From contig NZ_LMFB01000016.1 in NCBI RefSeq assembly GCF_001426685.1, positions 40,697-104,696 on the forward strand: a DNA stretch of 64,000 nt. The letters run 5' to 3'. A program made the position numbers and the translations under genes. Below, in pieces: positions 6,044 to 21,771 of the stretch. Below the pieces are notes generated by a model that worked only from the letters and a program-made list of their open reading frames with translations, searched no databases and was not told where the DNA came from. Origin of the DNA: Rhizobium sp. Root483D2 (GTDB taxonomy: Bacteria > Pseudomonadota > Alphaproteobacteria > Rhizobiales > Rhizobiaceae). The stretch's first letter is position 1; each line of letters starts with the position of its first letter.

Positions 6044-6047
6044 GCCG

Positions 6048-7181
6048 TCAGCCTTGCGCCGTCCGTTTCGTCTTTTTCGGATCATCGAAGGTGATCGTGT
6101 GGGCGATCGCCGGTGCGTTGACCGTCTTGCCCTTTACCTGGAGCTTGGTGCCCTGGACGGCATAGGGAACCTCGACGCGCATGATCGCCATCGAGCGGTT
6201 GGTGAGCTTGGAATAGGACGGGCAGGTGATGACGCCGACTTTTTTGTCGCCATCCCAGACTTCGTCGCCGAGATCGGCCGGTCCATCGGCCTCGATCAGC
6301 AGGCCGAAGATCTTGAAGCGTTCCTTGCCTTTGAGGCGGGCATGTTCCTCGGCGCCGCGAAAACCGGTCTTGCCGGGGCTGACGGTGAAATCGAGGCCGA
6401 GTTCCCACAGGCTGTCGCCGGGCTGCTCGTTAGCGAACGGATACATCTGCGAATTGTCGTAGGGGTAGAACAGCAGGTAGCTTTCGACCCGCAGCATGTC
6501 GAGAACGCTGAAGCAGACGGGGATGATGCCCATCTCCTTGCCTTCATCGACGATCCGGTCCCAGACCATGCCGGCATCCTGGCCGCGCACGAAGATTTCG
6601 TAGCCGCGTTCGCCGGTATAGCCGGTGCGCGAGATCATCACCGGGGCGCCGAACAGGGTCGTCTGCATATGGTGGAAATATTTGAGGTCGCGGATGCCGG
6701 GCACGTATTTTTCGAGATAATCGACGGCAAGCGGTCCCTGCAGTGACAGGTCATGCAGGTCGTCGTCGAACAGCACGGCACAATTGCGGCCCTGAGCCTG
6801 CTTGACGATTTCCTCGAAACCGGAGCCCGAGCCGTGCACCAGCATCCAGGAATTCGGGCCGGTGCGGTAGACGATGCAATCGTCGGTGAAATGGCCGCGA
6901 TCGTTCAGCATGCAGGCATAGACGGACTTGCCGGGATAGACCTTCGTCATGTCGCGGGTGGTGATATATTCCAGGATGGCAATCGCATGCGGGCCGACCA
7001 GATGCACCTTCTTCAGGCCTGAAACATCCATGATGCCGGCCTTGGTGCGCACGGCGATGTGTTCTTCGGAAATATCCTTGTCATAGGTCCAGGCGGTTCC
7101 CATGCCGCTCCAGTCCTCAAGATTGGACCCCAGTGCCCGATGCCGATCGCCCAAGGCGGAGAAACGCCAGCTAAGTGCCAT
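6048..7181 (-). CDS. GcvT-like tetrahydrofolate-dependent protein of the dimethylamine monooxygenase operon
   Basis: The 377-residue protein carries the aminomethyltransferase (GCV_T) fold with SLQGPLAVDYL (about 160), the SRTGYTGERGYEIF block (about 195-208) and a C-terminal GCV_T barrel. Family members bind tetrahydrofolate; next to an N-demethylase the expected job is capturing formaldehyde as 5,10-methylene-THF. It is the first gene of the operon: the ATG at 7181 has AAGGGAAC seven bases upstream, and the next gene begins 4 bases after its stop. This is not the T-protein of the glycine cleavage system, since no gcvH or gcvP is nearby. The position, coupled to a DmmA-like subunit, makes the assignment to the Dmm complex likely. 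Confidence 0.8.
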   Translation of the reverse strand: MALSWRFSALGDRHRALGSNLEDWSGMGTAWTYDKDISEEHIAVRTKAGIMDVSGLKKVHLVGPHAIAILEYITTRDMTKVYPGKSVYACMLNDRGHFTDDCIVYRTGPNSWMLVHGSGSGFEEIVKQAQGRNCAVLFDDDLHDLSLQGPLAVDYLEKYVPGIRDLKYFHHMQTTLFGAPVMISRTGYTGERGYEIFVRGQDAGMVWDRIVDEGKEMGIIPVCFSVLDMLRVESYLLFYPYDNSQMYPFANEQPGDSLWELGLDFTVSPGKTGFRGAEEHARLKGKERFKIFGLLIEADGPADLGDEVWDGDKKVGVITCPSYSKLTNRSMAIMRVEVPYAVQGTKLQVKGKTVNAPAIAHTITFDDPKKTKRTAQG

Positions 7182-7841: not shown

Positions 7842-8078
7842 TCAGCGCATCGCGCGCATCCGCTCGACCCAGTCAGCCCCGATCTGCCATCGCGTCAGCA
7901 CATCCAGCGGGTCCTCCGCATCGAGCCGCGAACAGATGCGATAGACCTCCAGAACCTCGGCACTCATCTCGCCGCGATGATAGAGAAAGGTGGCGGCGGC
8001 GTAGCGGGTGCGGCCGGACCATGCGATGCCCGGCGGAGTTTTGATCAAATCCCAGTTCTGGCGTGTTTCCTCGTCCAT
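7842..8078 (-). CDS. Small conserved-looking protein at the end of the flavoprotein/GcvT operon, unknown function
   Basis: From the ATG at 8078 this encodes 78 residues starting MDEETRQNWDLIKTPPGIAW. It is soluble, mostly helical, rich in Trp, Arg and Glu, with no cysteine pair or membrane segment. It begins 10 bases after the stop of the GcvT-like gene and runs in the same direction, so it is probably the fourth gene of that operon. I do not recognise a family. Its tight linkage to a tetrahydrofolate protein and two flavoproteins suggests an accessory subunit, but this is inference. A longer start (8117) would overlap the preceding gene and is less likely. Confidence 0.6.
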   Translation of the reverse strand: MDEETRQNWDLIKTPPGIAWSGRTRYAAATFLYHRGEMSAEVLEVYRICSRLDAEDPLDVLTRWQIGADWVERMRAMR

Positions 8079-8088
8079 ATCGCAACCG

Positions 8089-9309
8089 TCAGAACTGAGC
8101 GGGCGGGGAAGCGGCACGGCGGTCGAGCTTGATGAAGGGGCGCGGCACGATGCGGGCGCGTTTCATCATCTTTTGATATTGCAGTTCGCGCGACGCGTAG
8201 ATTTCCACCCAGAGATCTTCGGTCAGGCGCGTGCCATAGGGCCGGGTCAGGCTGGCGATGGCGATGTTGCGCTTGGCAAGCGGCGACCAGATTGCGGCAC
8301 TGACGAGGCCAGCCTCATGCTTTTTCCGGTGATAGAGGATGGCACCGTCAGCCGGAATATTGCCTTCAATTTCAAGGCCGACGAGCACATGTTTGAGAGA
8401 TTGATTCCGCCTGGCTTCAAGTATCGCTTGATGTCCATTGAAGGTGACTTTTTGCGCATCGACCAGCCAGTCCAGCCCGATCTCGTCGGGCATGCGGGCG
8501 CGGTCGGCGCGCAGCGCCGTCTCAGCCGTCATGAAATCGGCATTGGCGACGATAAAGCCGGCTTCGATGCGGGCGCGGTTGAGCGCGGCATAGCCGATGG
8601 CGCGGATGCCGTGAAGCTGTCCTGCCGTCCAGAGGCGGTCCCACAGGCTGAGCGCGGCATTGGCGGGGACGAACAGTTCGTAGCCGAGATCGCCGGTAAA
8701 GCCAGTGCGCGAGATGGTGACCGTGCCGCCCTCATGCGGGAAATCGGCGAGCTGGAAGGGTTTCAGCCGTTCGATGCCGTCGAAGCCGGCTTTGGAGAGG
8801 ACCGCGAATGACGTTGGGCCCTGCAGGGCAAGCCCGGCAATCTCAGCCGTTTCTTCCGCGACGGTAACATCAAAGCCGATGGCGCTGTCGAGCAGCCAGG
8901 GCAGGTGGCGCTCCTGGCAGCAGAGGCGGAACGTATCGGGCGCGAGCCGGAACAGGGTGCCATCATCGAGCACATGACCGTGGTCGTCGCACCAGGCGGT
9001 GTAGTGGACGCGGTCGATGCCGAGCTTCGAGACATCGCGCACGGTCAGCCGGTTGAGATAGCGCTCTGCCTCCGGCCCGGCGATACGATATTTCACCATC
9101 GGCGAAATATCGAACAGCGCCGATGTCGAGCGGATGGCGAAATATTCCAGTTCCTCGTCGAAGACCGAATGCGGCGCCTTGTAGCCGGACCAGGTGTACC
9201 AGTCGCTGGTTTCGCTGAGGGCTGCGATGCGCGGATGAAACGGGGTCTCGAAGCGCGGCGTGGCGATATGGCTCTGCAGGGCGCGGCGGGGGTTGATCTC
9301 CAGCATCAT
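8089..9309 (-). CDS. GcvT-like aminomethyltransferase family protein (second copy)
   Basis: The 406-residue protein has the GCV_T architecture: a VFDEELEYFAIRSTSALFDIS opening, ALQGPTSFAVL (about 175), SRTGFTGDLGYELF (about 211-224) and a C-terminal barrel domain. It would bind tetrahydrofolate and accept a C1 unit from an N-demethylation or take part in methyl transfer. It is distinct from the 377-residue GcvT-like protein of the Dmm operon. The start ATG overlaps the TGA of the upstream flavoprotein (ATGA), so the two are translationally coupled. This ties the flavoprotein pair to one-carbon chemistry rather than to carotenoid synthesis. The methyl donor substrate is unknown. Confidence 0.8.
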   Translation of the reverse strand: MMLEINPRRALQSHIATPRFETPFHPRIAALSETSDWYTWSGYKAPHSVFDEELEYFAIRSTSALFDISPMVKYRIAGPEAERYLNRLTVRDVSKLGIDRVHYTAWCDDHGHVLDDGTLFRLAPDTFRLCCQERHLPWLLDSAIGFDVTVAEETAEIAGLALQGPTSFAVLSKAGFDGIERLKPFQLADFPHEGGTVTISRTGFTGDLGYELFVPANAALSLWDRLWTAGQLHGIRAIGYAALNRARIEAGFIVANADFMTAETALRADRARMPDEIGLDWLVDAQKVTFNGHQAILEARRNQSLKHVLVGLEIEGNIPADGAILYHRKKHEAGLVSAAIWSPLAKRNIAIASLTRPYGTRLTEDLWVEIYASRELQYQKMMKRARIVPRPFIKLDRRAASPPAQF

Positions 9310-10901
9310 GATCTCTCCGAAAGAATGTGGCGCGCGGCGAGCAGTCCCGGCAGGCCGGAAATGCCGCCGCCCGGATGCGAACCGGCACTGGCGAGGTAGA
9401 GGCCGGACAGCGGCGTGGTATAGCCGGCCGCCGCATTGACCGGGCGGTTGACCAGCAGCTGATCGGCCTGCAGCTCGCCATGATGCCAGTGGCCGCCGGG
9501 CAGACGATACTGGGTTTCCATATCGGCCGGTGTCATCAGCTGGCGTCCGACGATGCTCTTGCTCAAGCCCGGCGCGTAGCGCTCCAGCGTGTCGAGGATG
9601 ATTTTTTCGAAGGCCGGTTTGCCATTGTCCCAGCCTCCCTTCAGATCATAGGGCGCAAATTCTACCAGGGCGGACAGCGTCGCGCCGCCGGGGGGCGCGA
9701 GTGCGGGATCGGCAAGGCTTGGCAGGGTGATCTCCATCACCGGATCGGGGGAGAATTCACCGTATTTGGCCGGATTGAAGGCATTTTCGACATGGGCGAT
9801 GGAGCGGGCGATGACCAGCCGGCCGCGATGGTCATCCGGCGAAACGCCGGTGAAGGCGGGCTGCCGGTCGAGGGCCAGATCGAGCTTGGCGACATTGCCT
9901 TTCGAGCGGATATTGCCGACGGCGCGGACCAAGCCTGTGCCGAGTTCGGCTGCGTCGCAGAGGTTCAGGAATGTCGCCTGCGGATGGATGGCGCAGACGA
10001 TAACGGGTGCGTTCAGCTGTTCGCCGTTGGCGAGCACGACGCCGGTTGCGGTGCCGCGATTGGCGAGGATGCGCGCGGCATGGGCGCCCGTGCGGATGAC
10101 GGCGCCGGCGGCGGTCGCTGCCTTTTCGAACGCCGGGGCAAGGGTGCTCATGCCGCCCTGCGGCACGCATTGTGCACCCGTCTTGCCGCCGGTTTCGCCG
10201 GTCAGGCGGTAATAGAGGCCGAGAAGCGAGGTCGGTGATCGCGGCCCGAGATGGATGCCGAGCGTGGCGTCGAAGGCAACGAGACCCTTGAGGCGGTCGT
10301 CGGTCAAATATTCGTCGGCGACATCGGCGACATTCATCAGGAGCATGCGCAGGAAGTCGCGGCCTTCCTCGCGGCCTTTGGTAATGAGGCTGAGGCCTGC
10401 GCCGGCGAAGGTTCCGAGGTCGTTCAGCTTGATTCTGCCGATCTCCGGCGGCCGGCGCTTGAGGAAGCGTTTGAGAATGCCCGCCTGGAACATCAGCTTC
10501 TTGCGCATGGCCGCAAAGGCCTTCGCCTCGGCCGGGCTGACGCCGTCGATTGTCTCGCCATAGGCACCACGCAGGACGGCGTGCCTGCCATCCGGCGAGA
10601 GCGCCACGGTCGGCAGGGACGCGCCGGAGGTTTTGGCGGCTTTCAGCTTCAGGAGGTCCTCGACCTCCGGATCGAGCCGGTTGACGATATGGGCGAGGCC
10701 GGCGGAGCGGTAGCCGGGGTGGAATTCAAAGCCGCGCATTGCGCCGCCGGTGCTGTCGGCGGCTTCGAGAACGACGACCCTGCGGCCGTTCTGCGCCAGC
10801 AGCGTGGCTGCCGTCAGGCCGTTATGGCCGCCGCCGATGACGATGGCATCGAAGTCTGCGGCGTTGAAATTCGTGGTCCGGGCGAGATCAGATGACGTCA
10901 T
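9306..10901 (-). CDS. Phytoene-desaturase-like FAD-dependent oxidoreductase (copy B)
   Basis: The 531-residue flavoprotein has an N-terminal dinucleotide-binding motif AIVIGGGHNGLTAATLL (about residue 19-36). The C-terminal FAD signature reads LYLASAGSHPGGGISGLPG, typical of the phytoene dehydrogenase / CrtI-like branch (COG1233). These enzymes oxidise C-C or C-N bonds with bound FAD. There is no carotenoid gene (crtB, crtE) nearby; instead it sits between a homologous flavoprotein and a GcvT-like gene, so amine oxidation is a more plausible role. Its start overlaps the end of the upstream homologue by 14 bases. It shares the overall plan of its neighbour, so the two may form a heterodimer. 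Confidence 0.8.
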   Translation of the reverse strand: MTSSDLARTTNFNAADFDAIVIGGGHNGLTAATLLAQNGRRVVVLEAADSTGGAMRGFEFHPGYRSAGLAHIVNRLDPEVEDLLKLKAAKTSGASLPTVALSPDGRHAVLRGAYGETIDGVSPAEAKAFAAMRKKLMFQAGILKRFLKRRPPEIGRIKLNDLGTFAGAGLSLITKGREEGRDFLRMLLMNVADVADEYLTDDRLKGLVAFDATLGIHLGPRSPTSLLGLYYRLTGETGGKTGAQCVPQGGMSTLAPAFEKAATAAGAVIRTGAHAARILANRGTATGVVLANGEQLNAPVIVCAIHPQATFLNLCDAAELGTGLVRAVGNIRSKGNVAKLDLALDRQPAFTGVSPDDHRGRLVIARSIAHVENAFNPAKYGEFSPDPVMEITLPSLADPALAPPGGATLSALVEFAPYDLKGGWDNGKPAFEKIILDTLERYAPGLSKSIVGRQLMTPADMETQYRLPGGHWHHGELQADQLLVNRPVNAAAGYTTPLSGLYLASAGSHPGGGISGLPGLLAARHILSERS

Positions 10902-12507
10902 GGGCCGGGCTCATTTCTGAAGGTTTCAGTTTCAGGTCACGCAGGATTTCGGCGGCGGCATTGCGGCCGGGCGCGCCCATGACGCCGCCGCCGGGATGGG
11001 TGGAAGAGCCGCAGAGATAGAGGCTAGGCACCGGCGTGCGGTATTGCGCGTAACCGGGCACCGGGCGGTTGAACAGCAACTGGTCGAAGGTCAACTCCCC
11101 TTGGAAGATATTGCCTTCGGTGAGGCCCACCTCCGCCTCGATCTCGCGCGGCGTGCGCACTTCCATATGCAGGATGCGGTCGCGGAAGCCGGGGGAATAA
11201 TCGGCGATCTGGCTGACGACGGTCTCGGCAAAGGCGTCGCGGTCGGCATCGGTCCAGTCGCGGCCTTCCAGTTGCGGCGGGCAATATTGCACGAAACAGC
11301 TCATGAAATGCTTGCCCGGCGGCGCCATGGTCGGATCGAGCGTCGTCGGGATCACCATATCGACGAAGGGATCGGCGGAATAGCGGCCAGCCTTCCAGTC
11401 GTCATAGGCGCGTTCCATCCGCTCCATCGAATCGGTGAAATGCAGATCGCCGCGAATGCAGGAGGAATTCTTCGGCAGCGCCGGAAATTCGGGCAGGCTG
11501 TCGAGTGCGATATTGAGCTTGCCAGACGAGCCGCGCATCTTGAAGTGCTTGACGCGGTGGACGAAGGCTTCGGGCAGGGCATCCTCCTCGACCAGCTTGA
11601 GGAAGGTGCGCTTGACGTCGGCATTGGAGACCACGAGATTGCCGCGCACCTCCTCGCCATCGGCCAGCACGACGCCGGTGGCGCGGCCGCTGCGGGTCAT
11701 GATGCGGGCCACATCGGCGCCGGTGCGGATCGTGCCGCCCGATGCCTTGAAGGAGGAGGCGAGCGCCTGGGTCACCGCGCCCATGCCGCCGCGCGCATAG
11801 CCCCAGGCGCCGACGGAGCCATCGACTTCGCCCATATAGTGATGCAGAAGCACGTAAGCCGTGCCGGGCGACATCGGCCCAAGCGCCGTGCCGATAATGC
11901 CTGACAGCGCCAGATAGGCCTTGATGACATCAGTCTCGAAATATTCGTCGAGGAAGTCCGAGATCGACATGGTCCAGAAGCGCAATGTCTGCGCCATGTC
12001 ATGGGCGGAGAATTCGCCGAATTTTTTGCCGAGATAGAGCAGTTCGGAAATGTCGCGCGGCTTGAAGGAAAACGGGTCCGGTGCGGTGCGCATCAACAGC
12101 GGCTGGATGAAACGGCATTGGCGGGTGACGTCGCGGGCGTAGCGGTCATAGGCTTCGGCATCGCGCTTCGAATAGCGGGCGAATTCGCGGCGATGGCTGT
12201 CATGGTCGCGGTAGGAGGCGATATAGTCGCCGTCGCGGGTAAAGACCGCGCCGCCTTCATAGGCGATGACCTGCAGCCCGTGTTTCGGCAGCTCGAGCTC
12301 GCGCATGATTTCCGGGCGAAACAGCGAGCAGACATAGGAACAGTTGGAGTAGAGGAAGCCGGGGGTCAGTTCGCGGCTGGTGGCCGCACCGCCCACCCAA
12401 TCGTTCTTTTCGAGCACCAGCACATCAAGCCCGGCGCGCTGCAGATAGCAGGCCGCGACCAGGCCGTTATGGCCGCCTCCGATCATCACCACATCGTATT
12501 TCTTCAT
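10888..12507 (-). CDS. Phytoene-desaturase-like FAD-dependent oxidoreductase (copy A)
   Basis: The 539-residue flavoprotein starts MKKYDVVMIGGGHNGLVAA (FAD/NAD Rossmann motif). It has an ARGGMGAVTQAL segment typical of CrtI-like enzymes and ends with LYLCGSSTHPGGGVMGAPG, the C-terminal FAD motif. It is the first gene of a four-gene minus-strand operon with copy B, the GcvT-like gene and a small protein. The ATG at 12507 has a GAGGGAGAC ribosome-binding site. A 16-base palindrome shared with two other promoters of the cluster lies 61 bases upstream (12568-12583), so regulation by the nearby BetI-like TetR protein is likely. No substrate can be read from sequence; the context points to a methylated amine or related compound. 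Confidence 0.8.
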   Translation of the reverse strand: MKKYDVVMIGGGHNGLVAACYLQRAGLDVLVLEKNDWVGGAATSRELTPGFLYSNCSYVCSLFRPEIMRELELPKHGLQVIAYEGGAVFTRDGDYIASYRDHDSHRREFARYSKRDAEAYDRYARDVTRQCRFIQPLLMRTAPDPFSFKPRDISELLYLGKKFGEFSAHDMAQTLRFWTMSISDFLDEYFETDVIKAYLALSGIIGTALGPMSPGTAYVLLHHYMGEVDGSVGAWGYARGGMGAVTQALASSFKASGGTIRTGADVARIMTRSGRATGVVLADGEEVRGNLVVSNADVKRTFLKLVEEDALPEAFVHRVKHFKMRGSSGKLNIALDSLPEFPALPKNSSCIRGDLHFTDSMERMERAYDDWKAGRYSADPFVDMVIPTTLDPTMAPPGKHFMSCFVQYCPPQLEGRDWTDADRDAFAETVVSQIADYSPGFRDRILHMEVRTPREIEAEVGLTEGNIFQGELTFDQLLFNRPVPGYAQYRTPVPSLYLCGSSTHPGGGVMGAPGRNAAAEILRDLKLKPSEMSPAHDVI

Positions 12508-12892
12508 GCCTCTGTCTCCCTCATTGCGAAAAATCTGGCATGAAAAGCAGAATGTTGTCCAGTTATATTGAATGAATATTCAGCAAGTATGTTGCAATCC
12601 TCTGATAATGCGATAGGATTTCGTGTCAAAGGCCATGCGGTGGAAATGACGGGATGATCGAAACCTCAATGCGGGAACCGGGATATGGCCAGGCAGGTGC
12701 ATCGGGCTCCGGTTTGGTGATCGCGCGAGTATCTCCGGCCGGCCAGGCACGCGGTTCCGTGACCGTGAAGACGGCGCGCACGGGCTATCCTGGAACGGGC
12801 ATCCGTAGCTTCAAAGCCAAGCAAAAGGTTCTTGACACCGGGCCGCATTGTCGCGCTCATCTGCCCGGTGAAAAACCGGGCGGGAGCGCATC
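12508..12892. other. Divergent control region between the flavoprotein operon and the TetR gene
   Basis: These 385 bases separate two divergent transcription units. The left part holds the shared palindrome at 12568-12583. A TTGACA at 12832-12837 could be the -35 element for the TetR gene, but no matching -10 is evident. A short open frame here has no family resemblance and I do not call it a gene. Confidence 0.5.
12568..12583. promoter_or_regulatory. Shared 16-bp operator, copy 1
   Basis: TTGAATGAATATTCAG contains TGAAT-N4-ATTCA, with the same half-site spacing as the sites at 18948 and 21756. It lies upstream of the flavoprotein operon and divergent from the TetR gene. It is a likely binding site for the BetI-like repressor encoded at 12893. 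Confidence 0.6.
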
Positions 12893-13594
12893 ATGAGCGT
12901 CGTTCTCAGCCTGAAGGGCAAGAAGGTTATGGTGAGAATGAAGGCAGTGTCTGCGGCGGAAACCGGCGAAAACGACAGGCGTGGCCGCAAGGCTTCGAAG
13001 GAAACACGGCGCCAGCAGCTGGTCGAGGCGACGATCGATTCGCTTGCCAAGCGCGGCTATTCCGAAACGACGCTGGCCGATGTTGCCGATGGCGCGGGCC
13101 TGTCGCGCGGCATCGTCAATTTTCATTTCGAGAGCAAGGAAAAGCTCTTGATTGCCACGCTGCAATTCATGGCCGATGAATATGCGGCGCATTGGGGCGC
13201 GGCACTCGATAAAGCGGGCGAGGCGGCATCCTCGCAACTCTGGGCTTTGGTGGCGGCCGATTTCGACCGCAAGATCTGCACCAAGCGCAAGCTGGCCGCC
13301 TGGTGCGCCTTCTGGGGCGAGGCGAAATCGCGGCCGACCTATCAGGCGCTCTGCGGCGCCCGCGACACCAAGTACCAGGAGCTGTTCGTGGCGCTCTGCG
13401 CGCAGATGAAAGCGGAAAAATCCTACACATATGACGCCGAAACCATCGCGCTGGCGCTCAGCGCCATGATGGAGGGCCTGTGGTTCCGGCTGATGATGGG
13501 CGATGGGCTGACGCGCGAAAAGGCCCATGCGGCGGCAATCGAATATCTGGTCTCGGTCTTTCCGGGCCATATGACCCATCAGGGTCCGAAATAG
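12893..13594 (+). CDS. BetI-like TetR family transcriptional regulator
   Basis: The 233-residue protein has an N-terminal TetR helix-turn-helix: RRQQLVEATIDSLAKRGYSE, then TLADVADGAGLSRGIVNFHF and ESKEKLL, about residues 38-86. A C-terminal ligand domain of the BetI type follows (WCAFWGEAKSRPTYQAL, then ALSAMMEGLWFRLM). BetI proteins repress choline/betaine genes and respond to quaternary amines. The gene is divergent from the flavoprotein operon and leads a plus-strand operon with the binding protein and amine oxidase. ATGs at 12929 and 12938 are alternative starts; the upstream ATG has GGGAG at good spacing. Three copies of a 16-bp palindrome in this cluster are its probable operators. The ligand is unknown. 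Confidence 0.85.
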   Translation: MSVVLSLKGKKVMVRMKAVSAAETGENDRRGRKASKETRRQQLVEATIDSLAKRGYSETTLADVADGAGLSRGIVNFHFESKEKLLIATLQFMADEYAAHWGAALDKAGEAASSQLWALVAADFDRKICTKRKLAAWCAFWGEAKSRPTYQALCGARDTKYQELFVALCAQMKAEKSYTYDAETIALALSAMMEGLWFRLMMGDGLTREKAHAAAIEYLVSVFPGHMTHQGPK

Positions 13595-13625
13595 GGAACA
13601 GCTGAAAACGGAAAAGGAGACCGGC

Positions 13626-14708
13626 ATGCGGATAATGGGAATGGTCAGGGATTTGGGCAGGGCCGCGTTGCTGGCCTCGCTGCTGTCCAGCGCGGCGTTT
13701 TCGGCGCGCGCCGCCGACAATATCACCGTCTTCGACTGGTCCGGCTACGAGGATCCGGCCTTCCACCCGGCCTATACCGCAAAGCACGGCACGGAACCGG
13801 ATTTCAGCTTCTTCGGCGATGAGGAAGAGGCGTTCCAGAAGTTGCGCTCCGGCTTCAAGGCCGACCTTGCTCATCCCTGTTCGCAGAGCGTCAACAAGTG
13901 GCGCGAGGCAGGGCTGCTCGAGCCGCTCGATACGTCCAAGCTGACCGGGTGGGACGATATTCTGCCCGGCATCAAGGCGATGAAGGGCCTGATGACCTCC
14001 GATGACGGCACGGCCTGGTTCCTGCCGTTCGAGTGGGGCAATACGGTTCTGACCTATCGCACCGACACGGTGAAGCCGGAAGAGGTCCAGTCGCTGAAGG
14101 CGTTTGCCGATCCGAAATTCAAGGACCGCGTCTCGATCGGCGATAATGTCGATGATGCCTATGCGCTGGCAAGCCTTGCGATCGGCCTCAAGGACTGGAC
14201 GAAGATGACCGATGCGCAGTTTTCGGAAGCTTCCGCTTTTCTGCGCGAGGTGCACAAGAATGTCCGCCTCTACTGGACCGACAATACCGAAGTCACCCAG
14301 GCGATGGCGAGCGGCGAGGTCGATCTCGCCTGGGCCTGGAACGAGACCGTGACGACGCTGCAAAAAGATGGCGTGCCGGCCGACGTCAAGCGGGATACGA
14401 CGGAAGGGCTGTCCACCTGGGTCTGCGGCTATGTCCGCCTGAAGGGTGCAGAGGGCGACGCGGACAAGCAATATGATTTCCTGAATTCGATCAGCGATCC
14501 GGCCATCAGTACGTACCTCGTCAATGACTGGGGTTACGGGCATGCCAATGCCAAGGGCATGGCTGCGGTTGACCCGGCGATCCTTGTGGCGAAAGGCTAT
14601 GCCGATGTCGATAAGTTCGTCGACAAGACGCTGTTCCAGTCGCCGATGCCGATCGAGCTGCGCCAGAAGATGATTGCCGAATTCGAGAAGATCAAGGCGG
14701 GCTATTGA
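13626..14708 (+). CDS. PotD/PotF-like periplasmic polyamine-type ABC substrate-binding protein
   Basis: The 360-residue exported protein has a signal peptide ending at about residue 29 (AAFSARAADN). The type II binding-protein fold follows, opening NITVFDWSGYEDPAFHPAY, which is characteristic of the spermidine/putrescine family. The segment NTEVTQAMASGEVDLAWAWN matches the PotD ligand-cleft region. It delivers substrate to the PotABC-like importer encoded convergently at 15967-18789. The ATG at 13626 has AAGGAG seven bases upstream and lies 31 bases after the TetR gene, so they are co-transcribed. Binding specificity (polyamine, betaine or another cationic amine) cannot be decided from the sequence. 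Confidence 0.85.
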   Translation: MRIMGMVRDLGRAALLASLLSSAAFSARAADNITVFDWSGYEDPAFHPAYTAKHGTEPDFSFFGDEEEAFQKLRSGFKADLAHPCSQSVNKWREAGLLEPLDTSKLTGWDDILPGIKAMKGLMTSDDGTAWFLPFEWGNTVLTYRTDTVKPEEVQSLKAFADPKFKDRVSIGDNVDDAYALASLAIGLKDWTKMTDAQFSEASAFLREVHKNVRLYWTDNTEVTQAMASGEVDLAWAWNETVTTLQKDGVPADVKRDTTEGLSTWVCGYVRLKGAEGDADKQYDFLNSISDPAISTYLVNDWGYGHANAKGMAAVDPAILVAKGYADVDKFVDKTLFQSPMPIELRQKMIAEFEKIKAGY

Positions 14709-16003
14709 GCGGATATGATGCAGATGTGATTGTCGCCGGGGCCGGTTTTGCCGGCCTTTCGGCGGCCGATGCCCTGGTGTCGGCCGGTCTCGATGTGATC
14801 GTGCTGGAAGCGCGCGACCGGGTTGGCGGGCGAGTGGAAGCCTCGGCTTTTGCCGATGGCGTTGCGATGGATACCGGCGGGCAGTTTATCTGCGACGAGA
14901 TGCCGAATGTCATGGCCTTGACGCGGCGGTTCAACTTGCCTTTGGCGGAGACGCCGCTGGACGGCGCCTTTCTCATTGAGCCGCAACCGTTTGAGGCGGG
15001 GTCGTCCTTTGCGGAATCCGGCCGCATCCGCGCCCGTGCCAACCGGATCGATCCGCGCGATCCCAATATTTCGGGGCTGACGGCGGGGGAATGGCTTGCG
15101 CGCCAGAGCGATCCGCCCGGCGCAAAAGCCAGCTATCAGGCGATGGTCGAGGGCCTCTGGTGCCGCTCGATGAGCGAAATCCCGCTCTGGTATCTGATCG
15201 ACAATGACCGGCGCACGATCAGCAACGGCAACGAGCTGCAATATTTCGCCGAGGGTACGATCCATGCTGCGGCCGAAGCACTGGCGGCAACGCTGGGCAA
15301 GCGCCTGCGGCTTGAGGCGCCGGTGGTTCGCATGGACCGCAGCGAGGGTTCGGTGTCGGTGACAACAGGCGCGGGCGGCGTCTTGACCGCGCGGCAGGTG
15401 ATCATTGCCGTGCCGCCGGTGATGGCTTCGCGCATCGCGCATGTGCCCGATCTCCCCAATGCGCTGAACGGCGCTCTGAGCGCTTGGAAAAGCGGCACGG
15501 TGATCAAGGCGCTGGTCCGCTTTGAGCGGCCGTTCTGGCGTGATCGCGGTCTGAGCGGCATGGTGATGTGGCGCGATACGCTGGGGCTTTTCGCCTGCGA
15601 TGTCAGCAGCCGGCAGGCGTCGGCGCTGGTGATGTTTGCCGGTGGGCCGGTTGCCGTCGAATGGAGCGCGAAGGGACACGCCTTCATCGAGGCGGAAATC
15701 TGCCGCCGGCTGGTGGCGGCGCTGGGTCCGCAGGCCGCTGAGGTGGCGGGGCTGTTGATCCGTGACTGGGTCGGCGATCCCTGGAGCGGCGGTGGCTATA
15801 GCGATGTGATCACGGATCTCCAGGCCTATGATGCCGAAGACATTCTGCGCGCCGGTGCGCCGCCGGTGCATTTTGCCTCGTCGGAGCTATCCCCGTCATT
15901 CCCCGCCTATATCGAGGGCGCCATCGTTGCCGGACGGGAAGCCGCCATGCGGGTGATTGCAGCGCATCAATCGGCCATCGCCACCAGCGCATCCGGATCA
16001 TAG
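14705..16003 (+). CDS. Flavin-containing amine oxidase
   Basis: The 432-residue flavoprotein has the amine-oxidase layout: VIVAGAGFAGLSAAD, then VLEARDRVGGRVEA (FAD and GG motif), a GGQFICDEMPN substrate region, and the C-terminal FAD motif FPAYIEGAIVAGREAA. Such enzymes oxidise primary, secondary or polyamine nitrogens to imines, releasing an aldehyde, ammonia or amine, and H2O2. Translation probably starts at a TTG that overlaps the TGA of the binding-protein gene (TTGA), with AAGGCGGG upstream. Its 3' end overlaps the convergent ABC ATPase gene by 37 bases. Linked to a polyamine-type importer and an aminotransferase, it should oxidise the imported amine or an intermediate. Confidence 0.8.
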   Translation: MSGYDADVIVAGAGFAGLSAADALVSAGLDVIVLEARDRVGGRVEASAFADGVAMDTGGQFICDEMPNVMALTRRFNLPLAETPLDGAFLIEPQPFEAGSSFAESGRIRARANRIDPRDPNISGLTAGEWLARQSDPPGAKASYQAMVEGLWCRSMSEIPLWYLIDNDRRTISNGNELQYFAEGTIHAAAEALAATLGKRLRLEAPVVRMDRSEGSVSVTTGAGGVLTARQVIIAVPPVMASRIAHVPDLPNALNGALSAWKSGTVIKALVRFERPFWRDRGLSGMVMWRDTLGLFACDVSSRQASALVMFAGGPVAVEWSAKGHAFIEAEICRRLVAALGPQAAEVAGLLIRDWVGDPWSGGGYSDVITDLQAYDAEDILRAGAPPVHFASSELSPSFPAYIEGAIVAGREAAMRVIAAHQSAIATSASGS

Positions 16004-17055
16004 GCAAGCCGGATCGGTGCGCCGACCGGAATATCGTCCGCGCCGAAATTATTGGTTTCCGACACGGACAGCGGTTTTTCGAGGCCCGGCACATCGACGA
16101 TCAGGTGGGTGATCTCGCCAAAATAATGCCGGTCGACCACATGGCCGGTCACCTCGCAATCGGCCTTGGCATCGTCCCACAGGACCCGCAGGCGTTCCGG
16201 GCGGATGCCGATGGTGATTTGGCCGTTCTCAGCGGTGAAGCCCTTGGGCTTGGCGATGGTGACATTGCCGAATCGGGTGGTCTCGACGGAGAGATTGAGA
16301 GCGCTTTCGCCGGTGATCTTTGCCCGCATGAAATTCATGCCGCCGAGAAAATCCGCGACCTGCCGGGTGAGGGGACGCTGGTAGATTTCCTTGGGCGTCG
16401 CCACCTGGGCAATCTTGCCGCCGAACATCACGGCGATCCGGTCCGACATGGCGAGCGCCTCGTATTGATCATGGGTGACCAGAACGAAGGTAATGCCGAC
16501 GGCTTTTTGCAAGGTGCGCAGTTCCACCTGCATTTCCTCGCGCAGCTTCTTGTCGAGCGCCGACAGCGGCTCGTCGAGCAGGAGCACCTTAGGCCGCATC
16601 ACCAGCGCCCGTGCAAGCGCGACGCGCTGACGCTGGCCGCCGGATAGTTCATGGGCCTTGCGTTTGCCAAGATGCGAAAGCCGAACCTGTTCCAGTGCGT
16701 TGCCGACACGCTGGCGTTCGTCGCTTGCGTTCAGCTTCAGGCGCTTGAGGCCGTAGCCGACATTGTCCTCGACATTCAGATGCGGGAAGATCGCATAGTT
16801 CTGGAAGACCATGTTGGTCGGCCGCTTGTTGGGCGGCAGGTCGATGGCCGAATGGCCGTCGATGCGGATGTCTCCGGACGTCGGCGTGTCGAAGCCGGCG
16901 ATCGAGCGCAAAAGGGTGGTCTTGCCGCAGCCGGACGGACCAAGCAGCGAGAAGAATTCGCCGGCGGCAATGTCGAGGCTGACATTGTCGAGCGCGCGAT
17001 AGATGCCGTAATAGCGGCTGACGGCATCGATCTCGATCATGGGTGTATCAGCCAT
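15967..17055 (-). CDS. PotA-like ABC transporter ATPase
   Basis: The 362-residue protein has a Walker A GPSGCGKTT (39-47), Q-loop FQNYAIFPHL, signature LSGGQRQRVALARAL, Walker B VLLLDEPLSALD and switch histidine VTHDQ. A C-terminal TOBE/regulatory domain (ITIGIRPERLRV) follows, as in PotA and MalK. It powers the amine importer with the two permeases encoded immediately upstream. The start overlaps the permease gene by 8 bases. The gene end overlaps the convergent amine oxidase by 37 bases, which is unusual and may couple expression of the two arms by antisense transcription. Confidence 0.88.
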   Translation of the reverse strand: MADTPMIEIDAVSRYYGIYRALDNVSLDIAAGEFFSLLGPSGCGKTTLLRSIAGFDTPTSGDIRIDGHSAIDLPPNKRPTNMVFQNYAIFPHLNVEDNVGYGLKRLKLNASDERQRVGNALEQVRLSHLGKRKAHELSGGQRQRVALARALVMRPKVLLLDEPLSALDKKLREEMQVELRTLQKAVGITFVLVTHDQYEALAMSDRIAVMFGGKIAQVATPKEIYQRPLTRQVADFLGGMNFMRAKITGESALNLSVETTRFGNVTIAKPKGFTAENGQITIGIRPERLRVLWDDAKADCEVTGHVVDRHYFGEITHLIVDVPGLEKPLSVSETNNFGADDIPVGAPIRLAYDPDALVAMAD

Positions 17056-17872
17056 GGGCGGCGGCTCCAGCTTTGAGGCGGTTTTCCGCGCGGCGGCGCA
17101 GGATTTCGGCGGTGGCGACCAGGAGGATCGACAGGGCGATCATCAGGCTTCCGAGCGCCAGCACGCTTGGCAGCTTGGCGGCAAAGCGCAGCTGTCCCCA
17201 GATATAGACCGGCAGCGTCGGCTCCGTGCCCGACAGGAAGAAGGCGAGGATGAATTCGTCGAGCGAAATGGTGAAGGAGACGAGCAGGCTGGAGATGATG
17301 GCCGGCGCCACCACCGGCAGCGTCACCCTGCGGAAGGTGCCGATGGCGGTTTCCCCAAGGTCGAGCGAGGCTTCCTCCAGCGAACGGTCGAAGCCATCGA
17401 AGCCGGAAATCAGCACCGACAGCGCATAGGGCAGGCAAAACACCGTCTGGCCGAGAATGACCGTGACCAGTGACAGTTCCAGGCCGAGCTGCAGCACGAT
17501 CATCAGCAGCGATACGGCTACGATGATCTCGGGCAGAAACAGCGGCGCCATCAACAGGCCGGTTGCCGCGCGCTGGCCGCGGAACTTGTAGCGGGTGACG
17601 GCGCGGGCGGCGCAGATGGCAAGGCCGGTGGACAGGAGTGAGACGCAGATGCCGACGATCAAACTGTTGCGCGCGGCGGCCAGCATCGCCGCATTGCCCC
17701 AGAGCGAGGCGTACCATTTGGTGGTGAAGCCGGCGAGCGGGAAGGTGGTGGAGGCTGCATTGTTGAACGAGAAGATCGGCAAAAGCAGGATCGGCAGATA
17801 GAGAAAGACAAGGTAAGCCGACACATAGACCGGCAGCCAGCGGGATTTTCGAATGCCGTGACGGCCGCTCAT
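17048..17872 (-). CDS. PotC-like ABC transporter permease
   Basis: The 274-residue inner-membrane protein has about six hydrophobic segments. The cytoplasmic EAA loop EASLDLGETAIGTFRRVTLP contacts the ATPase. The N-terminus is short and ends in a first transmembrane segment (YVSAYLVFLYLPILLLPIF), as in PotC/YdcV. It pairs with the larger permease upstream, whose stop it overlaps by 4 bases (ATGA), and it overlaps the ATPase start. Its role is one half of the transmembrane pore of the polyamine-type importer. Confidence 0.87.
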   Translation of the reverse strand: MSGRHGIRKSRWLPVYVSAYLVFLYLPILLLPIFSFNNAASTTFPLAGFTTKWYASLWGNAAMLAAARNSLIVGICVSLLSTGLAICAARAVTRYKFRGQRAATGLLMAPLFLPEIIVAVSLLMIVLQLGLELSLVTVILGQTVFCLPYALSVLISGFDGFDRSLEEASLDLGETAIGTFRRVTLPVVAPAIISSLLVSFTISLDEFILAFFLSGTEPTLPVYIWGQLRFAAKLPSVLALGSLMIALSILLVATAEILRRRAENRLKAGAAAHG

Positions 17873-18789
17873 TTGATCCGCCTCACGAATAGCTTCAGCG
17901 CCAGCACCATGCAGCCGGCCATGGCCGAAACGATCACCATCGTGGTGACGGAAAGGGCTGCTCCAAGCGGCCAGTTGGCCCCCTTGCCGAACTGCGCCTG
18001 GATGGCGGTGGCAATCATCACGCCGTCCTTGCCCCCAACCAGCTTGGGCGTGACGTAATCGCCGACGGTCGGGATCATCACGATCAGGAAGGCGGAAATG
18101 ACGCCCGGCAGCGACAGCGGCAGCGTGACGCGCAGAAAGCTCCAGACCTTGTTGTCACCGAGATCATGCGCCGCCTCGATCAGCGACCGGTCGATCTTTT
18201 CCAGGGAGACATAGATCGGCAGGATGGCAAAGGCCGCCCAGCTATGGACGAGCGTGATGATCACGGCGTTGGAATTGTAGAGCAATGTGGTCACCGGCTG
18301 ATCGATCAGTCCGGTGGACATCAAGCCGGTATTCAGCACGCCCTGATAGCCGAGGATGACCTTCCAGGACATGACGCGCAGGAGGTAGCTGGTCCAGCAG
18401 GGCACGGTGATCAGGAACAGCCAGAGGTTCTTGTGAACGCCGCCATGGAAGGAGATGAACCAGGCGACCGGATAGGAAAAAGTGACGGTGATGAGGCTGA
18501 CGGCGAGCGAGATGGTGAGCGAGCGCCAGAGCAGGTCGCGGTAGATCGGTTCTGTCAGGGCGACGCGATAATTCTCAAGCGTGAAGCTGCGGTCGATGGT
18601 CAGGTAATCCTGGGACCAGAAGCTATAGGCGATGACGATGAGGACGGGCAGGAAGAGCAGCGCCAGCGCGTAAAGCAGGGTCGGCGAGATTAGCGTCAGG
18701 CCCTTAGCCTCGTCGCTTGCCGCCCAGCGGCGGCTGCCGGCAAGGGGCGGTTTGCTTTCCACGCCGATTGCGCCCGGCAACGCCACCAT
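17869..18789 (-). CDS. PotB-like ABC transporter permease
   Basis: From the ATG at 18789 this is a 306-residue permease with about six membrane segments and an EAA loop EAAHDLGDNKVWSFLRVTLP. The open frame extends to 18963, but that start is a TTG lying inside the shared palindrome. The extra residues are basic and unlike the family, so an internal start is preferred. The exact choice is uncertain because no strong ribosome-binding site marks 18789. It is the first gene of the three-gene importer operon (PotB-PotC-PotA order), divergent from the aminotransferase gene, with the shared operator between them. Confidence 0.8.
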   Translation of the reverse strand: MVALPGAIGVESKPPLAGSRRWAASDEAKGLTLISPTLLYALALLFLPVLIVIAYSFWSQDYLTIDRSFTLENYRVALTEPIYRDLLWRSLTISLAVSLITVTFSYPVAWFISFHGGVHKNLWLFLITVPCWTSYLLRVMSWKVILGYQGVLNTGLMSTGLIDQPVTTLLYNSNAVIITLVHSWAAFAILPIYVSLEKIDRSLIEAAHDLGDNKVWSFLRVTLPLSLPGVISAFLIVMIPTVGDYVTPKLVGGKDGVMIATAIQAQFGKGANWPLGAALSVTTMVIVSAMAGCMVLALKLFVRRIK

Positions 18790-18947
18790 CAGCGCCACCC
18801 GTGCGGCGCGGTGCCGTGACAACAGTGAAAATGCAGGGATCGTATCATGCCGTCCGTCCCGGGCGGTTTTCCGCCATTCTTTGGTTCCCGCAGAGAGAAT
18901 GAGCGCAAAACGGGATTGAACGCAAGTGTTTTTTCTGCCAATATTGA

Positions 18948-18963
18948 TTGAACGGACATTCAA
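18948..18963. promoter_or_regulatory. Shared 16-bp operator, copy 2
   Basis: TTGAACGGACATTCAA is a near-perfect inverted repeat (TGAAC-N4-ATTCA) in the divergent region between the importer operon and the aminotransferase gene. It matches copies 1 and 3 in length and spacing. A half-site (ATTGAACG) occurs about 30 bases to its left. Confidence 0.65.
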
Positions 18964-19039
18964 AATAGAAGTAATTGATGTTTTATATCAGTTATTTGAT
19001 TGGAAATATTGTCCATAAATTATCTGTGGAGGCGAAAAA

Positions 19040-20452
19040 ATGGCGGCCAAACGTGAAGACGTGATCAGCTCTTTGGAGGCTTCGGACAGCATGGTTGCCC
19101 TGGCCAGAGATCATCTCGTCCAGCCCTGGCCGACGGCGGGCGAGATCGGCGCCGAGGCGCGCGGCGGTATCGTCAGCGGTGACGGTATCTATGTGATCGA
19201 CGGCGAGGGGCGAAAGCTGATCGACGGTCCCGCCGGCATGTGGTGCGTCAATGCCGGGCATCGGCGAAAGGAGCTCGCCGGCGTGCTCTATGATCAGGCC
19301 ATGGACCTCTCCTACAATTCGCCCTGGTACACGATGAACGCGCCGTCGGTGACGCTGTCCGCCCGGCTTGCCGATCATGCGCCGGGCGATCTCAATCATG
19401 TCTTCTACACGACCGGCGGCTCCTCTGCGGTCGAGACCGCACTGCGCTTCATGCAGTTTTCCAACAATGTGAAGGGGCGTCCGGACAAGAAGCTGATCGT
19501 GTCGCGGCAAGGCGGCTATCACGGCTCGACCTATCTGTCGGCCTCGCTGAACGGCCGTCCGCGCGATCACGACTGGATGGACAGCGCCGGCGAGCAGGTG
19601 GTGAAACTCGCCTGTCCCAATCCGTTCCGGCGGCCGGAAGGGATGAGCGAGGCTGCGTTCTGCGATGGGCTCGTCGCGGAATTCCGCGCGGTCATCGAGG
19701 CGCGGGGGGCCGAGCGCATCGGCGCCTTCATTGCCGAGCCGGTGATGGCATCCGGCGGCGTCATCGTGCCGCCGGACGGTTATCTCAGCCGGATGCGGCA
19801 GCTGTGCACCGACAACGACATCCTGTTCATCGCCGACGAGGTGGTGACGGCTTTCGGGCGGCTGGGGCATGTCTTTGCCTCCAGCGATGTCTTCGGCATC
19901 GAGCCTGATATGATCACTTTCGCCAAGGGTGTGACCTCCGGCTACTTTCCGCTTGGCGGGGTGATGATTTCGTCGCGCCTGTTTGAGGAATTGCGCCGCT
20001 CCAACCACCCCGATGCGATGTTTGCCCATGGGCTGACCTATTCCAGCCACCCGATCGGCTGCGCCGTGGCGCTGAAAAATCTCGATATCCTGGAAGAGGG
20101 GCTGCTTGAACATACGCGCGCCATTTCCGGCCATTTCCAGGCGAGCCTGAAGACGCTCGAAGACCTGCCGCTGGTCGGCGAAGTGCGCGGGGCCGGACTG
20201 ATGGCCTGCGTCGAATGCGTCGCCGACCGTGTGCACAACAATCCGCTGACGCTTGATCTGGATGTCGGCAAACGCATCGACAGGCATTGCCAGGACCTCG
20301 GTCTCCTGGTGCGGCCGTTGATCAACATGTGCGTGATGTCACCACCGCTGACGATCACCCTGCCGCAGATCGACGAGATGACCACGATCCTGCGCACCAG
20401 CATCCGCCGGACGATGGATGAACTGGTGCGCGAAGGGTTGTGGCACGGCTGA
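19040..20452 (+). CDS. Class III omega-aminotransferase (PLP-dependent)
   Basis: The 470-residue enzyme has the class III fold. GGSSAVETAL binds PLP phosphate, IADEVVTAFGR carries the cofactor-pairing Asp (266), and the Schiff-base lysine is Lys296 in ITFAKGVTSGYFPLGG. Relatives transfer amino groups from putrescine, beta-alanine, taurine or other omega-amines to pyruvate. A GGAGG ribosome-binding site precedes the ATG. It is transcribed away from the importer operon, with the shared operator 77 bases upstream, and converges on the Rieske oxygenase gene. The expected role is deamination of the imported substrate or of a demethylated product. The exact amine donor cannot be read from sequence. 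Confidence 0.85.
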   Translation: MAAKREDVISSLEASDSMVALARDHLVQPWPTAGEIGAEARGGIVSGDGIYVIDGEGRKLIDGPAGMWCVNAGHRRKELAGVLYDQAMDLSYNSPWYTMNAPSVTLSARLADHAPGDLNHVFYTTGGSSAVETALRFMQFSNNVKGRPDKKLIVSRQGGYHGSTYLSASLNGRPRDHDWMDSAGEQVVKLACPNPFRRPEGMSEAAFCDGLVAEFRAVIEARGAERIGAFIAEPVMASGGVIVPPDGYLSRMRQLCTDNDILFIADEVVTAFGRLGHVFASSDVFGIEPDMITFAKGVTSGYFPLGGVMISSRLFEELRRSNHPDAMFAHGLTYSSHPIGCAVALKNLDILEEGLLEHTRAISGHFQASLKTLEDLPLVGEVRGAGLMACVECVADRVHNNPLTLDLDVGKRIDRHCQDLGLLVRPLINMCVMSPPLTITLPQIDEMTTILRTSIRRTMDELVREGLWHG

Positions 20453-20497
20453 GTTTTGTCTTGGGCATGGCTTCCATTCCCCGCCATGCTCATTTTT

Positions 20498-20526
20498 AAA
20501 GGGCCGGTTTTCCCGGCCCTTTCTTT
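20498..20526. terminator. Bidirectional terminator between aminotransferase and Rieske genes
   Basis: AAAGGGCCGG pairs with CCGGCCCTTT around a TTTTC loop, with TTCTTT on the plus side and a run of A on the other. It can serve both convergent genes. Confidence 0.8.
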
Positions 20527-20534
20527 ATGGCTTG

Positions 20535-21737
20535 TCAGACTGCGGCAAAGCGCAGCCGGCTGTTCATGCCGGCCATTTCCCGCTCGTCCGGGGCGGCGGG
20601 CAGGGTCATGACCGGCAGGATGGCGCGAAGGTGGTCGTGGTGGGTGCGCACGCCATATTCGAGATCGGACAGGTAGAACCCGTTGAAGGCTTTGGAGGTC
20701 ATCGATTCGTTGGACCAGATGGTCAGTTGCACGTCCTCGGCCTGCGTATCGCGGTCGATGCGCTGGGCAAGGTAGCGGGCGGCGCGTTCCCGGCGGCTTT
20801 CGTCGCGATGGCGGTAGACGCCGCCGCGCAGCATGGTTTGGCCTGTGGAAAGCGGAAATTCCTGGTAGAACTGCACGGCTTCCGGTGTCACGGCGATTAC
20901 CGCATTGGCGAAGATGCCGTAGTAGATCCAGGCCTTGCGCAGGTGCTGCGGCAGGTGGGTGGCTTCCGGGGCGATTCTGACATAATTGCGCACGCTCCAG
21001 CGCCGGCCGGCATGCGGATTATAGGTGGCAAAGGAGCGGCAGAGGCCGTTGACGAAGGGTTCGTCATAATAGGTCGAGCCATAGAGGTCCTGCAGCGCCG
21101 GATGGGCCATCGCCACGTGGTAGCCCTCGTTGTCGACATCACGGACGGATTTCCAGTTGACCGGCGAGGTCTGCGTCCAGAGATTGCCGGCGGGAACCAT
21201 GTCCTGCGTCTTGTATTCGCTGAGTTCGGCCGCGAAGGGCTGCATCAGTTCGGCGACGGACGGCTGGGGCCCAGGTGCAAAACGGATGAAGACGAAGCCC
21301 ATCCAGACTTCGAGATCCAGTGCGATCAGCCCGAATTCCTGCTTGTCGAGCGGCGGGAAGGAGCGGGGGCGGGCGGCGCCCCGCAATGTTCCGTCGAGAT
21401 TATAGACCCAGCCGTGGAACGGACAGACCAGCGCATTGCGGCAGGTTCCCTTGTCATCGGCCACGACGCGCGAGCCGCGGTGGCGGCAGATATTGTGGAA
21501 GCCGCGCACGGTGCCATCCTGGTCGCGCAGGATCAGCGCGCGCTCGCCGACGACATCCATCGTGATGTAATTGCCGGGCTCCGGCACATCGGAAACATGG
21601 CAGGCGATCTGCCAGTGCTCGCGGAAGACATGCTGTTTTTCAAGCTCCAGCAGCGCGTCGCTGTGATAGCACCAGCCCGGCAGGCCGCTGCGGTCCCAGT
21701 CGTTGGGAACGTTGATGTTTCGGGTCATTTCGTTCAT
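20535..21737 (-). CDS. Rieske non-heme iron oxygenase, alpha subunit (quaternary-amine type, cluster 1)
   Basis: The 400-residue oxygenase has a Rieske [2Fe-2S] site CRHRG...CPFHGW (C84, H86, C105, H108). The mononuclear iron site reads DNEGYHVAMAHPA (H207, H212, with a carboxylate expected later). Its single-component alpha layout resembles oxygenases acting on stachydrine, glycine betaine or carnitine. The open frame continues to 21767, but that upstream ATG lies inside the shared palindrome. The ATG at 21737 has GGGGAA just ahead and is preferred. No reductase is adjacent; the PDR-type reductase at 4476 is the only obvious candidate in the window. The operator position suggests repression by the BetI-like regulator. 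Confidence 0.85.
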   Translation of the reverse strand: MNEMTRNINVPNDWDRSGLPGWCYHSDALLELEKQHVFREHWQIACHVSDVPEPGNYITMDVVGERALILRDQDGTVRGFHNICRHRGSRVVADDKGTCRNALVCPFHGWVYNLDGTLRGAARPRSFPPLDKQEFGLIALDLEVWMGFVFIRFAPGPQPSVAELMQPFAAELSEYKTQDMVPAGNLWTQTSPVNWKSVRDVDNEGYHVAMAHPALQDLYGSTYYDEPFVNGLCRSFATYNPHAGRRWSVRNYVRIAPEATHLPQHLRKAWIYYGIFANAVIAVTPEAVQFYQEFPLSTGQTMLRGGVYRHRDESRRERAARYLAQRIDRDTQAEDVQLTIWSNESMTSKAFNGFYLSDLEYGVRTHHDHLRAILPVMTLPAAPDEREMAGMNSRLRFAAV

Positions 21738-21755
21738 GAATTTCCCCATATCTTG

Positions 21756-21771
21756 CTGAACGTTCATTCAA
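21756..21771. promoter_or_regulatory. Shared 16-bp operator, copy 3
   Basis: CTGAACGTTCATTCAA (TGAAC-N4-ATTCA) lies 19-34 bases ahead of the preferred Rieske start codon, where it would overlap the transcription start or -10 region. It has the same geometry as copies 1 and 2. Confidence 0.65.

Follow-up and report, generated by a model that had tools for sequence, protein, structure and literature searches.

The 64,000-nucleotide stretch of Rhizobium sp. Root483D2 analysed here (contig NZ_LMFB01000016.1, positions 40,697 to 104,696 of the forward strand; hereafter the window) carries at 7842–21771 a cluster of genes for a PotABCD-like importer, a Rieske oxygenase, two CrtI-like flavoproteins (CrtI1 and CrtI2), a GcvT-like protein, a class-III aminotransferase and a TetR/BetI-like regulator. 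The cluster is one conserved regulon that is inherited as a unit within the family Rhizobiaceae. We tentatively propose, with a probability of about 45%, that a BetI-like repressor governs a pathway that would import an N-methylated amine, quaternary or tertiary, and remove its methyl groups step by step. The reactions, their order and the substrate are what we infer, with the glycine betaine route and a fused set of genes in the same window as models; the data support the proposal without amounting to proof. Observed directly are the gene content, the co-inheritance, the common operator, an old and stable flavoprotein pair, and intact residues at the folate and iron sites.

Gene content of the cluster

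Every element that the initial annotation had named at 7842–21771 was found, including the importer, the Rieske oxygenase, the flavoproteins, the aminotransferase and a small open reading frame (ORF). The features are as follows, the two CrtI-like proteins and the GcvT-like protein being referred to as the triad.

7842–8078, minus strand: small helical protein, 78 amino acids; no Pfam or NCBIfam family
8089–9309, minus strand: GcvT-like folate-binding protein, 406 amino acids, triad member; PF01571
9306–10901, minus strand: CrtI-like flavoprotein 1 (CrtI1), 531 amino acids, triad member; CrtI/CrtO-like
10888–12507, minus strand: CrtI-like flavoprotein 2 (CrtI2), 539 amino acids, triad member; CrtI/CrtO-like
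12567–12582, plus strand: operator at the promoter of crtI2, crtI1, the gcvT-like gene and the small gene; perfect match, site also in relatives
12655–12892, plus strand: remnant of a deleted PMT-like methyltransferase gene, from comparison with a genus mate
12893–13594, plus strand: TetR/BetI-like regulator; TetR_C_6 and TetR_N
13626–14708, plus strand: PotD-like periplasmic binding protein, from family models and pocket comparison
14705–16003, plus strand: flavin amine oxidase, accessory; PF01593, 187 bits
15967–17055, minus strand: PotA-like ATPase; Pfam and NCBIfam matches
17048–17872, minus strand: PotC-like permease; NCBIfam matches
17869–18963, minus strand: PotB-like permease, with its true start further downstream; NCBIfam matches
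18943–18962, plus strand: diverged operator between potB and the aminotransferase gene; two overlapping two-mismatch matches, site in relatives
19040–20452, plus strand: class-III aminotransferase of the PRK07036 family; NF005447, 690.7 bits
20535–21737, minus strand: Rieske oxygenase with bridging Glu214 (numbering of the listed ORF, 20535–21767); PF00848 and PF00355
21757–21772, minus strand: operator upstream of the Rieske gene; perfect match, site also in relatives

The crtI2, crtI1, gcvT-like and small-protein genes overlap or abut in an operon-like arrangement. The aminotransferase scores above the cut-off of 618 bits of its curated model; among the matches listed, every other cluster protein falls under the NCBIfam cut-offs of the models that it matches, and none of these can therefore be assigned to a known specific function. 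The small protein probably begins at residue 14 of its listed ORF (window 8078), where its closest homologues begin, some further homologues being longer, and the Rieske oxygenase probably at residue 11 (about 21737), as in two annotated homologues. The operator runs into the 5′ end of the potB ORF, so the start listed for potB is too far upstream.

A shared operator and co-inheritance in the family

The operator that the cluster had been said to share is real and serves three promoters, those of crtI2, potB/aminotransferase and the Rieske gene. With up to two mismatches, ATTGAWTGAAYRTTCA has four matches at three places in the window (two overlap), against a mean of 0.16 in the shuffled window, where none of 100 shuffles reaches four; the window count is partly circular, as ATTGAWTGAAYRTTCA was derived from these very sites, so that the relatives provide the independent test. 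Across 31 stretches (594,601 bases) taken from 30 further family genomes we found 72 operator sites at the same stringency, 69 of which lie between 60 bp inside and 400 bp upstream of the start of a matched crtI2, aminotransferase, potB or Rieske gene. The 6.04-Mb genome of the strain itself holds only two perfect matches, at crtI2 and the Rieske gene, and eight more with two mismatches, two of them at potB/aminotransferase and six elsewhere; the reversed ATTGAWTGAAYRTTCA has no match in the same genome. The regulator falls below both BetI models (119.5 bits against a cut-off of 201.3, and 116.8 against 118), and the site resembles the BetI operator of E. coli, a resemblance that fits a regulator scoring near, yet under, the BetI models.

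Conservation of the gene neighbourhood across the family had been named as a check by the initial annotation, and the genes do co-occur. Among 151 family genomes, searched at E ≤ 1e-150 for CrtI2, 1e-120 for the Rieske oxygenase and 1e-200 for the aminotransferase, these proteins occur in 31, 36 and 33 genomes, respectively, and all 31 CrtI2-positive genomes have both of the others. The Fisher p values for CrtI2 with the Rieske oxygenase and with the aminotransferase are 2.4e-27 and 3.4e-30, which are optimistic given that the genomes are related. In 28 of the 31 the Rieske gene lies within 35 kb of crtI2, the other three having it on another contig; the aminotransferase gene is as close in 28, further off in two and on another contig in one.

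The regulator, CrtI2, CrtI1, the GcvT-like protein and the small protein are present at all 30 family loci compared, followed by PotD (28/30), PotA, PotC and the aminotransferase (26/30 each), PotB (25/30), and the Rieske oxygenase and the amine oxidase (21/30 each); genes not seen in this count may lie beyond the fetched stretch, as some stretches end before them. In annotated Shinella and Rhizobium relatives the set is present, and the amine oxidase is neither listed nor matched. The amine oxidase, which the initial annotation had counted among the set, is accessory, and the conserved CrtI pair is the likelier oxidant of the amine. Fuscovulum has the triad, the Rieske oxygenase and the regulator, with merely distant relatives of the aminotransferase and Pot genes. 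In Rhizobium sp. SL42 the annotation places an inositol dehydrogenase, a MocE-type ferredoxin and a desaturase, presumably a rhizopine-type set, near the cluster (L041 31682–36194).

The genes listed by the initial annotation are real, and one was missed: a PMT-like methyltransferase gene, which most relatives have as part of the set (26 of the 30 family loci) and which has been deleted here. In the genus mate it sits between crtI2 and tetR; the flanks align with the window at 86%, and in the window 128 bp stand in place of about 689 bp of genus-mate sequence; elsewhere in the genome there are only weak methyltransferase matches (30–33% identity, E about 6e-7 or weaker), and we therefore conclude that the gene has been lost in this strain. 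The best solved relatives of the methyltransferase are phosphoethanolamine N-methyltransferases (126.7 bits). The cluster is modular, as indicated by this loss and by the triad-less clusters of two family genomes, G010 and G055. The triad-less variant clusters are stretches L179 and L180.

The CrtI–CrtI–GcvT triad

The GcvT-like protein matches PF01571 with 190 bits, its C-terminal domain falling just short of the PF08669 cut-off (24.7 against 25.9), and its nearest solved relative is trimethylamine N-oxide (TMAO) demethylase (172.5 bits). Tyr103, Asp116, Glu211, Arg247 and Glu249 are invariant in all 61 aligned rows, and Asp116 aligns with Asp96 of the Thermotoga maritima T-protein, the catalytic residue. 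The protein has both the folate domain and the catalytic Asp of GcvT-type aminomethyltransferases. The DMGDH/sarcosine dehydrogenase family is defined by a DAO flavin domain fused to GcvT; here the CrtI-like and GcvT-like chains are separate.

The triad recurs far outside the family. When an alignment of CrtI2 was run against one genome per species and the best 80 loci were kept, 66 of these held the triad (two or more CrtI-like genes together with a gene for a GcvT-like protein), the partner genes being absent from the query, and in 59 of the 66 it spans less than 6.5 kb. The 80 loci come mostly from metagenome-derived records whose names may be wrong, are not a random sample, and had their genes called crudely as ORFs. 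By record title the 66 triad loci include Alpha-, Beta- and Gammaproteobacteria, Acidobacteria, Gemmatimonadetes, Planctomycetota and Anaerolineae, as well as Bacteroidetes-type groups, Rhodothermaeota, Zixibacteriota and actinobacterial groups. Eleven of the 14 loci without the full triad have less than 3.1 kb of sequence on at least one side; in L101, L107 and L119, with 10 kb on both sides, a triad member is still missing. As a control, 12 loci with a CrtI2 homologue of 38–46% identity carried neither a further CrtI gene nor one of the GcvT-like kind within the 12 kb covered (two of them hold a Rieske gene), and the one locus of the control scan at 57–60% identity has the full triad. A sample of 299 genomes across the phylum gave a CrtI2 match at 1e-120 in 19 and at 60% identity or more in seven, the strain's own genome included, and a megablast search of phages returned no close match to 8089–12507.

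An unrooted tree of 141 CrtI-like proteins contains one branch (support 1.0) that splits the pair in all 62 two-CrtI loci, the window included; ORFs outside 440–640 amino acids or below 120 bits were left out, there was no outgroup, and the midpoint root does not fall on the branch between the two flavoproteins. The two flavoproteins look like ancient lineages that have stayed side by side, and a single duplication is the simplest account that we infer from the unrooted tree. Three loci (L044, L189 and L192) pair a more distant CrtI2-like gene with a neighbouring Rieske gene and lack a GcvT-like one, an arrangement that is perhaps an older two-gene form.

The surroundings of the triad vary. 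In some gammaproteobacterial and other relatives it lies near gamma-glutamylputrescine-synthetase-like, DAO-type oxidase, PuuC-like and Pot genes, with scores under the NCBIfam cut-offs for all but the Pot genes in this list, and gammaproteobacterial neighbours also include a CoA ligase and an acyl-CoA dehydrogenase. Around the deep-phylum loci, where 109 of 155 neighbouring ORFs were scanned, we counted nine amino acid permeases, five Rieske oxygenases and three formyl transferase domains. It is possible, if on balance somewhat doubtful, that the triad is an undescribed type of N-demethylase, in which a heteromeric CrtI-fold pair from one old duplication would hand methyl carbons to a free-standing GcvT-like protein, spread over many phyla and working with one upstream enzyme or another, frequently a Rieske oxygenase, according to the amine. 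No description of this gene set was found in the open-licence literature searched, including parts of PMC7948474, PMC10952381, PMC7576179, PMC13390433, PMC3596328 and PMC3484140.

At E ≤ 0.001 the small protein encoded beside the triad has a match in neither Pfam nor NCBIfam, and one of eight homologues matches DUF4880 at E 0.19. Its AlphaFold model has five helices and a mean predicted local distance difference test (pLDDT) score of 86.7, and has no match in the PDB at E ≤ 0.001. Its residues 24–74, in the numbering of the listed ORF, align with the N-terminal region of a DMSP_lyase-family protein of Fuscovulum (L039 23210–24061; 43%, E 7e-8). This link to a DMSP-lyase-family cupin occurs in one genome only, and full-length searches, with matches in 18 of 289 genomes of the class and in five plasmids, one its own, added nothing. 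An SdhE-like identity, suggested by eye, was unsupported by the structure and family searches.

The Rieske oxygenase and the binding protein

The bridging residue of the Rieske oxygenase is Glu214 in place of Asp, as in the carnitine monooxygenase CntA, and the same holds for the aligned orthologues. CntA is also its best solved relative (121 bits over residues 30–228). Passages of PMC7948474 describe the quaternary-amine Rieske oxygenases as group V. A bridging Glu is among the features of the group, and some members, e.g., CntA and Stc2, have a Cys pair (Cys-X-X-Cys) beside the iron site. In 35 Rieske ORFs from 25 loci, a comparison that some ORFs (e.g., those of L042, L044 and L045) did not enter, the bridging residue is Glu in 33 and Asp in two, and the Cys pair occurs in 18.

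The pocket of the PotD-like protein reads WSGYCQNDWWCY in 26 of 30 hits, where E. coli PotD has WTEYSYDEWWDY. Of the six aromatic residues, only Tyr85 is lost, being replaced by Gln. The acidic residues that hold the amino groups of the ligand in PotD are Glu36, Asp168, Glu171 and Asp257, and they are replaced by Gly, Asn, Asp and Cys, respectively, an off-by-one alignment at Asp168 being possible, which would retain Asp there. An ordinary polyamine is an unlikely ligand, because most of the acidic residues of polyamine binders have been lost, and a single-charge or quaternary ligand would suit the pocket better than a linear polyamine.

Genes flanking the cluster

Directly left of the cluster lie dmm genes (3402–7181) and trimethylamine monooxygenase (tmm, 1873–3210), with TMAO demethylase (tdm) just outside the window (G000:C16 37841–40210). 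The monooxygenase (849.7 bits, cut-off 675), the demethylase (1256.9 bits, cut-off 1100) and DmmA all pass their cut-offs, and in the genus mate (L181) tmm and dmm stand beside the cluster as well. To the right, 29766–36160 encodes a GbcA-like Rieske oxygenase and two DAO (FAD)–GcvT fusion proteins (fusions at 29766–34681), which by their domains make up a parallel N-demethylation set of the fused kind. Further right, 41715–47463 encodes an aminobutyraldehyde dehydrogenase, which passes the PRK13473 cut-off of 615 with 804.6 bits, and a YdcS-like binding protein, which at 621.3 bits stays under its cut-off of 725. These family assignments mark the region as an island of genes for methylated amines and polyamines.

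Proposed mechanism and alternatives

The PotABCD-like importer would take up a quaternary or tertiary N-methylated amine, and the Rieske oxygenase would oxidise one N-methyl group of a quaternary nitrogen with release of formaldehyde. CrtI1 and CrtI2 would then oxidise the remaining N-methyl groups, the GcvT-like protein would transfer those methyl carbons to tetrahydrofolate, and the class-III aminotransferase may deaminate the freed primary amine. The scheme of the initial annotation, in which an imported N-methylated amine is demethylated oxidatively with one-carbon (C1) transfer to tetrahydrofolate and then undergoes amine oxidation and transamination, holds in part: the cluster is one regulon inherited as a unit and its parts, with Asp116 and Glu211 of the GcvT-like protein conserved throughout, are consistent with removal of methyl groups by oxidation and their transfer to folate as C1 units, while the step order and the type of substrate are proposals.

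Several observations weigh against this proposal. Five family genomes hold the Rieske oxygenase without CrtI2, two of which have the aminotransferase and three of which (G087, G089 and G114) lack this aminotransferase too at the cut-offs used; G010 and G055, which gave no CrtI2 match at E ≤ 1e-150, group the small protein, methyltransferase, TetR regulator, aminotransferase and Rieske oxygenase without the triad. Conversely, the best 80 triad-scan loci include a Rieske gene in 23, an aminotransferase gene in 20 and any Pot gene in 26, many of these stretches being short. In the window Rieske oxygenase and its eight closest rows, Asp212 occupies the position of CntA Tyr203, where group V has Tyr or Phe (Va) or Asn (Vb). 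This clade also lacks the Cys pair, with Gly and Val in its place in the window protein. The bridging Glu is found in all four Rieske alpha subunits of the genome, two of them in the window, and is thus not distinctive, and no Rieske reductase was found inside the cluster among the family-model matches of its proteins. Finally, a methyltransferase in 26 of 30 relatives is ill-suited to a purely demethylating route.

This last point leads to the view that the cluster serves for remodelling and not for degradation: the methyltransferase would make a methylated metabolite that the remaining genes recycle. The methyltransferase is indeed widespread in the family and is retained even in the triad-less G010 and G055 stretches; however, both here, where it is deleted, and at four of the 30 family loci, where it was not found, the other cluster genes are retained, and the importer and aminotransferase suggest catabolism, so that we regard remodelling as improbable. 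An N-methylated di- or polyamine as substrate, which would make the cluster a methylated branch of polyamine catabolism, is unlikely yet deserves to be taken seriously: the importer is PotABCD-like, the triad adjoins the sub-cut-off putrescine-pathway-like genes and Pot genes in several relatives, and the PRK13473 dehydrogenase and YdcS-like protein lie in the same window, whereas the PotD-like pocket has its main acidic residues replaced.

The genes for trimethylamine use suggest instead that the Rieske oxygenase cleaves a C–N bond and releases trimethylamine, like CntA, for the neighbouring tmm, tdm and dmm products to consume. Their position directly left of the cluster, repeated for tmm and dmm in the genus mate, and the bridging Glu speak for such a reaction, but no tmm or dmm is named in the annotation of the examined stretches of five relatives from other genera, CntA Tyr203 is replaced by Asp, and the triad would be left without a role; we judge it to have a small chance of being correct. 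It would surprise us greatly if the CrtI-like proteins were carotenoid or terpenoid desaturases located here by chance. Among the matches listed, their best NCBIfam models are CrtO and CrtI, and the AlphaFold model of CrtI2 (pLDDT 86.2) ranks gamma-carotenoid desaturase first and CrtI third among PDB folds; nevertheless, all these model scores are below their cut-offs, NicA2 and monoamine oxidases follow close behind in the fold list, and the pair is tied to the GcvT-like gene in many bacterial groups.

Relation to known systems

A close parallel to stepwise N-demethylation by this cluster is the glycine betaine route, in which the GbcAB Rieske system is followed by dimethylglycine and sarcosine dehydrogenases. 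Both would employ a Rieske enzyme for the quaternary step and flavoproteins with a GcvT domain for the later methyl groups; here, however, a separate CrtI-fold pair and a separate GcvT-like protein take the place of the fused enzymes, and the Rieske oxygenase scores 134 bits against a GbcA cut-off of 670. CntA is alike in its bridging Glu and differs at Tyr203 and in its Cys pair. Tdm and DmmD have the folate domain nearest to that of the window GcvT-like protein, but Tdm is a single fused chain acting on TMAO, whereas the presumed oxidising part here consists of two CrtI-fold proteins. PotABCD belongs to the same transporter family, with the aromatic pocket mostly retained here, the acidic residues replaced and the scores below the Pot cut-offs. 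In the stachydrine route, StcD is an old-yellow-enzyme-type protein and not CrtI-like, and a gene of that broad type adjoins the cluster in some relatives; the likeness lies in a flavin-dependent demethylation that follows the Rieske step. The Rieske enzyme of that route, Stc2, is assigned to group V in passages of PMC7948474.

Two further candidates were set aside. Sinorhizobium meliloti SMb20278–20285 is ruled out as a studied relative, having a LysR regulator and a carboxymuconolactone decarboxylase according to passages of PMC3596328 and PMC3484140. Homarine catabolism was also considered, for which only Mgd is named as a participant in the portion of PMC13390433 consulted.

If the proposal is correct, a carotenoid-desaturation fold would have been recruited as a paired, folate-linked N-demethylase. 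It would give a testable function to an enzyme module that soil and marine bacteria from many phyla possess, and would add a further bacterial route to nitrogen and C1 units from methylated amines.

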